The position numbers and the translations under genes are program-made. Source: a virus. From it: a stretch of 64,000 bases of DNA. The stretch covers positions 1 to 64,000 of IMG/VR virus record IMGVR_UViG_3300031963_000063. One strand, 5' to 3'. Below, piece after piece: positions 3,611 to 4,755 of this stretch; within the stretch, counting starts at the first letter, position 1, and every line of letters begins with the position of its first letter. The notes under the pieces were generated by a model that was not told the origin of the DNA, ran no database searches, and worked only from the letters and a program-made list of their open reading frames with translations.

Positions 3611-3616
3611 TTTCAG

Positions 3617-3700
3617 TAGGGCGAGGGGGAATCGAACCCCCACGGGAATACTCCCAGCAGATTTTAAGTCTGATACGGCTACCAGTTACGTCACCGCCCC
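3617..3700 (-). tRNA. tRNA-Leu(UAA)
   Basis: The minus strand folds as a class II tRNA. The acceptor 5' strand GGGGCGG starts at 3700 and pairs with TCGCCCT (two G-U pairs), and the T arm is GGGGG-TTCGATT-CCCCC. The anticodon loop in CAGACTTAAAATCTG places TAA as anticodon, with a long variable arm typical of Leu. The discriminator base is A at 3617 and CCA is not encoded. It decodes UUA, a codon expected to be common in this AT-rich phage. A strong sigma70-type promoter ends 13 bases upstream. Confidence 0.93.
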
Positions 3701-3712
3701 GTGTATGGGACC

Positions 3713-3741
3713 ATTATAACTCAGAGAGTTGTAGTGGTCAA
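3713..3741 (-). promoter_or_regulatory. Sigma70-type early promoter, TTGACC-17-TATAAT
   Basis: On the minus strand -35 is TTGACC (3736-3741) and -10 is TATAAT (3713-3718), separated by exactly 17 bases. Predicted transcription start is near 3706, just before tRNA-Leu. The -35 box almost touches the 3' end of tRNA-Met, so the promoter exactly fills the gap between the two tRNAs. Confidence 0.85.
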
Positions 3742-3742
3742 G

Positions 3743-3815
3743 TGCTGGTTGTCGGGATCGAACCGACCTGTCTTGCCTTATGAGGGCAGTGCTTTCGCCA
3801 GAGAGCTAAACCAGC
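3743..3815 (-). tRNA. tRNA-Met(CAU)
   Basis: The acceptor stem GCTGGTT/AACCAGC is fully paired and the T arm is GTCGG-TTCGATC-CCGAC. The anticodon loop CTCATAA gives CAU. CAU may read Met, or Ile AUA if modified to lysidine. Because a separate tRNA-Ile(UAU) for AUA sits close by, an elongator Met role is the more economical reading. No CCA is encoded. Its 5' base overlaps the last base of the HNH gene stop codon, so it is probably processed from a longer transcript. Confidence 0.88.
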
Positions 3816-4192
3816 TATTTTATATTCAACGCTCGATAAGTAGGAGTTAATGAATGACAGTTAGGGCATAATACTCGAAGATTGTCTTTACTAGCATTCT
3901 TCCTATTACCATCAATGTGGTCGATTTCTAGTGTTGTATTTCCAGAAACTGGATTGACACCTGCCCAACTACATTGAGAGCATTTGTATCCTGCTTCTTC
4001 TAGCAAATGTCTTCTAACATAACCAGAGAGTGAATTACCCCTTATTATACCAGATTTTGTGCCATTCAACCATTCAGTGATATATTCACGATCTTGGTTG
4101 TCTTGCTGACATTTACGAGAACAGTATTTACCTGTCGATTGTGACGGCATATACTTAAAGTTTTTTTCACAAGATAAACACTTACCAATCAT
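3815..4192 (-). CDS. HNH endonuclease (125 aa)
   Basis: A small HNH nuclease of the type found as free-standing homing endonucleases in T4-like phages. An N-terminal zinc-ribbon-like part has CLSC (5-8) and YCSRKC, then CSQC about residue 76. The HNH core is LEIDHIDGN followed by DNLRVLCPNCHS, supplying the His, Asn and His of the motif. Its TAG stop shares one base with tRNA-Met, and it lies between tRNA-Met and tRNA-Ile, a position typical of a mobile endonuclease inserted into a tRNA cluster. A perfect TATAAATA late box lies 24 bases upstream, inside a large inverted repeat. Confidence 0.9.
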   Translation of the reverse strand: MIGKCLSCEKNFKYMPSQSTGKYCSRKCQQDNQDREYITEWLNGTKSGIIRGNSLSGYVRRHLLEEAGYKCSQCSWAGVNPVSGNTTLEIDHIDGNRKNASKDNLRVLCPNCHSLTPTYRALNIK

Positions 4193-4237: not shown

Positions 4238-4239
4238 AA

Positions 4240-4311
4240 TGGGAATGCTGGGACTTGAACCCAGTTCTACCGCTTATAAGGCGATGGCCTTAACCCATAG
4301 GCGACACTCCC
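4240..4311 (-). tRNA. tRNA-Ile(UAU)
   Basis: The acceptor stem GGGAGTG/CATTCCC has one G-T pair and the T arm is CTGGG-TTCAAGT-CCCAG. The anticodon loop CTTATAA gives UAU, which reads AUA. The discriminator is A. Bacteria normally read AUA with a lysidine-modified CAU tRNA, so a UAU tRNA lets the phage read its own AT-rich codons without that enzyme. It sits immediately downstream of a rho-independent terminator, so it needs readthrough or an unseen promoter. Confidence 0.9.
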
Positions 4312-4312
4312 A

Positions 4313-4334
4313 TAAAAACCCTGAAGATCAGGGT
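4313..4334 (-). terminator. Rho-independent terminator of the early mini-operon
   Basis: On the minus strand ACCCTGA-TCT-TCAGGGT is a perfect 7-bp stem followed by TTTTTA. The stem contains the TGA stop codon of the Phd-like gene, so the gene ends inside its own terminator. Confidence 0.85.
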
Positions 4335-4498
4335 GCTTCGTCGTGCTCAGTGTGTATTCGCACAAAGTCATCATCCGCAGGTATCATCACAGCAGCTCTA
4401 CCTTCTTCATCCACAATTCCTAACGTCTCTCCATTCTCAACTCTTTTGATTAATTCATCCCATCGTTCTTGAAATTCTTCCACGGTAAAAATTTCCAT
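4328..4498 (-). CDS. Phd/YefM antitoxin-like small protein (56 aa)
   Basis: The sequence starts MEIFTVEEFQERWDELIKRV, then ENGETLGIVDEEGRAAVMIP and a short acidic tail. The order of elements (beta strand, F..RWDEL helix, VENGE turn, then G.AAVMIP) is that of the DNA-binding N-terminus of Phd/YefM antitoxins, normally about 75-90 residues; here the toxin-binding C-terminus is nearly absent. It follows a 65-aa gene in an operon with its own sigma70 promoter and terminator. No Doc- or RelE-type toxin is adjacent, so a repressor or an antitoxin mimic acting in the host is possible. Assignment is by motif reading only. Confidence 0.72.
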   Translation of the reverse strand: MEIFTVEEFQERWDELIKRVENGETLGIVDEEGRAAVMIPADDDFVRIHTEHDEAP

Positions 4499-4504
4499 TT
4501 TGGA

Positions 4505-4512
4505 TATTTATA
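4505..4512 (-). promoter_or_regulatory. Late promoter box TATAAATA
   Basis: Exact TATAAATA on the minus strand, only six bases before the ATG of the Phd-like gene. A transcript from here would be almost leaderless, so its activity is uncertain. Confidence 0.4.
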
Positions 4513-4514
4513 AA

Positions 4515-4712
4515 TCAGAGAGGATTGGAATATGCAAGACAATCATCACTGACTTGATCACGAACAACTTCTAGTACATTCATGAATTGATCTACGGTCT
4601 CACACTCCACAACTCGTTCGTTACCTTCACTCGAATACAAATAGAACTTACGTGCCAAAGTATCGACAACACAACGACTCAGGATTTCTTCGGTGGGCAT
4701 TGGGTGATTCAT
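4515..4712 (-). CDS. Small conserved-looking protein (65 aa), early operon
   Basis: I do not assign a family. The protein begins MNHPMPTEEILSRCVVDTLA and continues with KFYLYSSEGNERVVECETVD and an amphipathic helix near residues 42-52. It is first in a two-gene unit with the Phd-like gene, directly under a perfect sigma70 consensus promoter. The predicted transcription start, near 4720, is only about eight bases before the ATG at 4712, so the mRNA would be nearly leaderless; a second ATG at 4700 is an alternative start. Strong immediate-early expression is the best clue to its role. Confidence 0.8.
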   Translation of the reverse strand: MNHPMPTEEILSRCVVDTLARKFYLYSSEGNERVVECETVDQFMNVLEVVRDQVSDDCLAYSNPL

Positions 4713-4726
4713 TTGATTACCCCCAT

Positions 4727-4755
4727 ATTATAGGGGGTCTTGGTCCTGGTGTCAA
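4727..4755 (-). promoter_or_regulatory. Consensus sigma70 promoter, TTGACA-17-TATAAT
   Basis: -35 TTGACA (4750-4755) and -10 TATAAT (4727-4732) are both perfect, with a 17-base spacer. C5 and G5 runs flank the -10 box as an inverted repeat, which may serve as an operator. Confidence 0.92.

Follow-up and report, generated by a model that had tools for sequence, protein, structure and literature searches.

Why phages carry tRNA genes is a question of long standing. One answer, set out in the available sections of three reports, is that tRNAs supplied by a phage counter host defences that cut tRNA (PMC11555353; PMC13096335; PMC10264068). On the host side, the accessible part of one paper gives toxin-antitoxin genes for 65 of 67 freshwater picocyanobacteria (PMC13366656), and excerpts of another place yefM/yoeB, phd/doc and vapBC in strain CB0101 and record a twofold rise of its relE at 30 min after infection with phage (PMC5498466). 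Recurrence of an antitoxin-fold gene together with one particular tRNA offers a direct test of whether phage tRNAs answer host toxins, and the case considered here lies in phages of abundant cyanobacteria.

The locus comes from a window of 64,000 nt, meaning the whole stretch of DNA analysed (positions 1 to 64,000 of IMG/VR record IMGVR_UViG_3300031963_000063). The source virus record, of 85.5 kb, has T4-like baseplate and tail genes, and the nearest named relatives of the virus are cyanophages. Central to the locus is a gene for a 56-aa protein whose family is already known: PHROG 375 of S-SM2, S-TIM5, S-SKS1, S-PM2, Bellamy and others is the same family and is annotated in RefSeq. In open-licence PMC papers no description was found of its linkage to tRNA-Ile(UAU), its acidic face or its tail, nor of the exchange of tRNA bodies dealt with below. 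The reading preferred here, with a probability put at about 0.38, is that an orphan protein of Phd fold inhibits a host toxin and has a replacement tRNA, tRNA-Ile(UAU), as its partner.

Organization of the locus

The features, in their minus-strand order, are as follows.

4727 to 4755, minus strand: sigma-70-type promoter, TTGACA-17-TATAAT, score 12/12
4515 to 4712, minus strand: 65-aa protein, DUF7294 / phrog_662 (PF23966, phrog_662)
4505 to 4512, minus strand: late-type (T4-like) promoter motif TATAAATA, exact, between the two ORFs
4328 to 4498, minus strand: 56-aa Phd/YefM-fold orphan antitoxin-like protein, phrog_375 (profile, Foldseek and VIA)
4331 to 4369, minus strand: conserved C-terminal tail, residues 44-56 of the Phd-like protein (alignment, codon analysis)
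4313 to 4334, minus strand: terminator-like hairpin with the stop codon in its stem, plus T-run (pairing kept in relatives)
4239 to 4312, minus strand: tRNA-Ile, anticodon UAU, reading AUA (ARAGORN; Rfam tRNA, 57.8 bits)
3815 to 4192, minus strand: free-standing HNH endonuclease between tRNA genes (PF01844, phrog_1271)
3742 to 3815, minus strand: CAU-anticodon tRNA, called tRNA-Met (ARAGORN, Rfam)
3713 to 3741, minus strand: second sigma-70-type promoter, TTGACC-17-TATAAT, before tRNA-Leu, score 11/12
3616 to 3700, minus strand: tRNA-Leu(UAA) (ARAGORN, Rfam)

The order thus runs from the sigma-70 promoter through the 65-aa ORF, TATAAATA, the 56-aa ORF and the hairpin to tRNA-Ile(UAU), and beyond it on the same strand to the HNH ORF, the CAU-anticodon tRNA and tRNA-Leu. 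An initial annotation of this DNA had recognized a perfect promoter (4755 to 4727, at 12/12), two genes (4712-4515 and 4498-4328) and a terminator containing the second stop codon, and all three stand, the TGA at 4330-4328 being within the terminator-like hairpin at 4334-4318. Its description of the unit as self-contained does not, for the tRNA-Ile at 4312-4239 abuts the hairpin and is the usual neighbour of the Phd-like gene. The HNH ORF (Pfam PF01844, 25.3 bits against a cut-off of 21.4; phrog_1271, E 3.3e-20) is a free-standing endonuclease that could be a driver of tRNA allele exchange. S-SRM01 likewise has an HNH gene downstream of the Phd-like gene.

The 65-aa protein is a DUF7294 member (PF23966, 72.4 bits against a cut-off of 27; phrog_662, E 9.9e-17) with a predicted b-b-b-a-b structure (pLDDT 80.6), for which Foldseek gave weak FtsH N-domain matches only (best E 0.06, TM about 0.5). 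That it forms a pair with the 56-aa protein, as first supposed, finds little backing: DUF7294 adjoins the Phd-like gene in only 45 of 88 loci, and the remaining 43 gave no match to it. The DUF7294 island of S-SM2, SynMITS9220M01 and Bellamy, flanked by virion structural and tail fibre genes, is without the Phd-like gene, which sits 121-134 kb off in each. This makes DUF7294 a companion of the gene within one lineage and not a fixed partner. Two clearly different versions of it occupy the same place in related loci.

Promoters and timing of expression

Perfect sigma-70 matches are rare, with a mean of 0.15 per strand expected from mononucleotide shuffles of the 64 kb. The window has three, at 4755, 28747 and 28517 of the minus strand, of which the latter two probably mark another early region. 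Among the 45 loci with DUF7294 before the Phd-like gene, the promoter scores 12/12 in 36, 11/12 in eight and 10/12 in one, and since 44 of the 45 reach 11 or 12, an early start from it is credible on sequence grounds. In addition, TATAAATA at 4512-4505 is presumably a late promoter of T4-like type. Of the distinct regions upstream of the Phd-like gene, 14 of 32 in the DUF7294 group and 3 of 29 others have the exact motif no more than 40 nt before the gene (as background, ATAAATA is within 40 nt of 8 of the 51 minus-strand ORFs of the window). Given its frequency in the DUF7294 group, the cassette of Phd-like gene and tRNA is probably expressed again late. The earlier label of an 'early' unit is consequently credible as far as the promoter goes, near-perfect as it is in relatives, and is incomplete in that a late-type motif also precedes the Phd-like gene. 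A second copy of TATAAATA, at 4223-4216 on the minus strand, stands before the HNH gene.

Linkage to an AUA-reading tRNA

The Phd-like gene is linked to tRNA-Ile(UAU). In 70 of the 88 loci chosen by the protein (80 of the 87 relatives in the sample were kept), this tRNA adjoins the gene, starting -1 to 47 nt past the stop codon; five others have tRNA-Met(CAU), one tRNA-Arg and 12 no tRNA, a UAU tRNA not called by ARAGORN being visible by eye in two of the 12 (L044 and L066). Counted per distinct protein (n=64), the figures are 49, four, one and ten. A tRNA of any kind lies, by way of control, within 60 nt of 299 of 5043 other ORFs. The 70 adjacent pairs are found in several contexts, 43 behind DUF7294, 20 behind tRNA-Pro and seven elsewhere.

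The reverse test chose loci by two tRNA body patterns, blind to the Phd-like gene, yielding at least 120 and at least 119 (L157, matching both patterns, was counted in the first set); when 27 of the 239 without a tRNA call and seven without upstream room are left out, 205 remain. Among the matches listed, a Phd-like gene is no more than 150 nt upstream in 135 of these 205 tRNA-Ile(UAU), made up of 70/94 and 65/111 for the respective patterns, and the 70 that lack it count against the cassette; by distinct 200-nt upstream flank the listed matches divide into 116 with and 68 without. No other tRNA type among the 40 commonest listed has the Phd-like gene within that distance, with the exception of CAU tRNAs (100 of 199 among the matches listed), and those CAU tRNAs are presumably for the most part the second tRNA of an array. 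In the 16 phage records that were fetched, tRNA-Ile(UAU) adjoins the Phd-like gene in nine and a CAU tRNA does so in Bellamy. Also to be counted against the cassette are the six with no tRNA up to 60 nt downstream, namely S-PM2, S-SCSM2R, S-BM3, S-RSM4, Sf-CH1b and Sf-FS3. Adjacency with a tRNA for AUA, a rare codon, hints at joint action of the two against the host cell.

A more mundane possibility, tentative yet to be taken seriously, is that tRNA-Ile(UAU) is retained for AUA codons, with the Phd-like gene, whose small role would be unrelated, merely sharing a promoter and recombination unit with it. Phage tRNAs commonly track codon use; across the 16 large ORFs counted in the window, AUA accounts for 179 of the 990 codons for Ile. 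Codon supply alone can explain the tRNA, and occurrence of the pair in compact islands and tRNA clusters is also as hitch-hiking would have it. Harder to accommodate are a pair that persists across three or more contexts and two widely separated places in the genome, and a reverse test that, among the matches listed, is strong and specific to the anticodon.

Exchange of tRNA bodies

Common to all 39 distinct tRNAs behind the Phd-like gene is little but the loop CTTATAA/C and the T-loop. Where the Phd genes are 90-95% identical, median tRNA identity is 0.64 (31 locus pairs); where they are at 95-99% or above, it is 1.0 (32 locus pairs). One form is non-canonical (examples are L083:3184-3274 and L085:3231-3320). 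Its anticodon stem has 7 bp and its D-loop 4 nt, a single nucleotide separates acceptor and D-stem, the variable arm carries the loop CAGATTA, and the D-arm is fixed by the search motif. All 82 distinct copies of this form from the fetched loci have the UAU anticodon; the 7-bp anticodon stem is complete in 75 and the variable stem in 76, with several compensating versions. At the non-canonical sites in L005, L080, L083 and L085 the Rfam tRNA model is below threshold, and in the S-SKS1 and S-SRM01 records this RNA is unannotated.

The usual bacterial reader of AUA is a CAU tRNA modified with lysidine, and a UAU tRNA would for that reason be independent of the modification. For T4-like phages, a lysidine-modified CAU tRNA for AUA features in the available portion of one report (PMC1524935). 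An elaboration that we consider doubtful is a two-part counter-defence against a tRNA-destroying toxin, in which a Phd-fold inhibitor and a replacement AUA tRNA would act together and the exchanged bodies would reflect an arms race; the tRNA body would have been swapped repeatedly, as far as the non-canonical form with its long variable arm, the UAU anticodon and the Phd-like gene beside it being kept.

Fold and charge of the 56-aa protein

Both profile search and structure prediction bear out the likeness to Phd/YefM antitoxins that had been noticed at the outset. The phrog_375 'Phd-like antitoxin' profile matches residues 3-51 of the 56-aa protein with E 4.7e-10, and VIA gives Z 8.2 to 3hs2_A (rmsd 3.1, 55 aligned). 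Curated cut-offs were missed, with Pfam PhdYefM at 20.9 against 29.8 bits and NCBIfam at 11.8 against 20.8. The model, predicted from 28 rows of which one was doubled, is b-a-a-b-b-a with pLDDT 81.8, its final five residues being under 50. At the top of the Foldseek PDB list are truncated P1 Phd (3hs2), VapB46 and YefM, with probability about 1.00 and, for a query of just 56 aa, E about 0.01; VapB46 is the best PDB match by sequence. The modelled structure shows a fold of Phd/YefM type.

Its surface is another matter. Net charge is -12 in 56 aa (family median -11 for 64 distinct proteins), the N-terminal helix has E7, E8, E11, D14 and E15, and three cellular relatives carry +1 to +2 across the 43 matching residues, a stretch that is acidic in the phage protein. 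The N-terminal helix in the Phd family touches DNA, and judged by its charge the 56-aa protein would be without a DNA-binding face. This bears on the suggestion, also made in the initial annotation, of a repressor; as a transcriptional one, a Phd-type dimer on an operator at the early promoter would shut the unit off. Although the Phd/YefM fold would suit it, antitoxins of that fold being autoregulatory, such a role is unlikely for so acidic a protein, and because the acidity extends to the helix with which members of the family contact DNA, an inhibitor is ranked above a repressor.

The tRNA junction and the C-terminal tail

The hairpin at 4334-4318 has seven pairs followed by TTTTT, with the TGA of the 56-aa ORF (4330-4328) inside. 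A 12-kb scan found six hairpins with T-run against a shuffle mean of 6.5, and on its own the hairpin is accordingly not significant. Across the 29 distinct junctions of DUF7294-bearing loci, however, 12 have a hairpin plus T, versus 94 of 1450 in shuffles; seven of the 12 enclose the stop codon, and stems have changed yet still pair (compare ACCCTGA/TCAGGGT with AGCTCAG/CTGAGTT). As the terminator of a closed unit the hairpin was ruled out, given that the tRNA abuts it and that 37 of 48 distinct tRNA-bearing junctions have no hairpin plus T.

A toxin-neutralising tail had been thought lacking. The alignment does reveal a short conserved C-terminal tail, the last 13-15 residues of the Phd-like protein being kept even where the linker is longer; proteins of the S-TIM5 group are without it. 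Canonical Phd has 73 aa, and the comparative shortness of the tail counts against an antitoxin. A general cyanophage C-terminus could be dismissed as an account of the tail, since among 29,490 ORFs the tail is found in 131 Phd-like ones and four others. All four of the latter, short ORFs without the Phd domain (ending at L253:8752, L278:4865, L301:5861 and L309:3205), stand directly before tRNA-Ile(UAU), and tblastn with one of them gave no match in phages. In those of L253, L278 and L301 the tail encodes TTGACA-18-TATAAT-like promoter sequence.

Codon choice in the tail is skewed. Ile is ATA in 74 of 85 tail codons, as against 85 of 198 for the domain and the 179 of 990 given above for large ORFs of the window, and ten codons before the stop, with the AUA-reading tRNA just downstream, it is ATA in 39 of 39, these counts being from related sequences and hence not independent. 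Within the DUF7294 group the adjacent CGA and CAC codons are just as invariant, which weakens an AUA codon sensor as the sole cause of the bias. Such a sensor would be part of an improbable form of cis-regulation in which tail codons and stop-codon hairpin make up a translation-coupled attenuator of the tRNA, with ribosomes reading ATA-CGA-ATA shortly before the hairpin. The ATA preference and the enclosure of the stop codon in 7 of the 29 DUF7294-group junctions would be expected of it. Against this, 17 of the 29 are without hairpin plus T, conservation of CGA and CAC means that AUA alone is not at issue, Leu codons take their place in many marine relatives, and in the protein of the window itself the first of two Ile positions is Val.

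Orphan state

Each of 17 records, 16 from phages plus that of the window, has one Phd-like gene (28 phage records were listed, the ones not fetched being duplicates or S-B43, S-H68, S-TIM61 and S-TIM66). PIN, Fic/Doc, YoeB and ParE/RelE toxins gave no match in any of the 17, the window's record being a fragment, in agreement with the first impression of 'no obvious toxin'; PADLOC gave no match. Synechococcus elongatus, one of the control genomes, returned PIN, YoeB and ParE matches, and beside two of the three cellular relatives, the actinobacterial L091 and L092, the next ORFs were read by eye as putative PIN/VapC. A search for close host antitoxins, a check proposed in the initial annotation, found none: genome_contigs contributed three distant matches, none of them cyanobacterial, and plasmids no match. 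An orphan antitoxin against host defence is nevertheless plausible from the sequence.

The gene is under purifying selection, with a median dN/dS of 0.13 and no value as high as 1 among the 479 usable pairs (of 861, from 42 coding sequences). A decayed remnant of a toxin-antitoxin module, though it would explain why 17 records are free of toxins of four families, is scarcely credible, being refuted in the main by this selection and by the presence of one copy in every record.

Possible mode of action and comparison with known systems

For the preferred reading, an orphan inhibitor with a replacement tRNA, the cassette would consist of an orphan Phd/YefM-fold protein of T4-like cyanophages with an AUA-reading tRNA-Ile(UAU) behind it. 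The protein would bind and block one of the host's type II toxins directed at translation (of VapC/PIN, YoeB/RelE or Doc type), with the tRNA sustaining AUA decoding when the AUA-reading tRNA of the host is limiting or destroyed. The tRNA gene is intact by ARAGORN and the Rfam model; its counter-defence role is putative. Fold, orphan state, selection and tRNA linkage are demonstrated, while we infer target, neutralisation, rescue and the way in which protein and tRNA would share the work, toxin blocking combined with tRNA supplementation being suggested by how common type II toxins are in picocyanobacteria and by the use of phage tRNAs against tRNA-cutting defences.

Parallels can be drawn in two directions. 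With P1 Phd (of Phd-Doc), YefM and VapB46 the 56-aa protein shares the fold of the N-terminal domain, but it has no adjacent toxin and its tail is short; that domain is acidic in the phage protein and near neutral in the three cellular relatives. With the tRNA-Tyr of T5/T6 and the mycobacteriophage tRNAs directed against VapC, as far as the available sections of those reports describe them, the similarity is that the phage supplies the tRNA. Unlike in the T5/T6 and mycobacteriophage cases, the tRNA here is paired with an antitoxin-fold gene.
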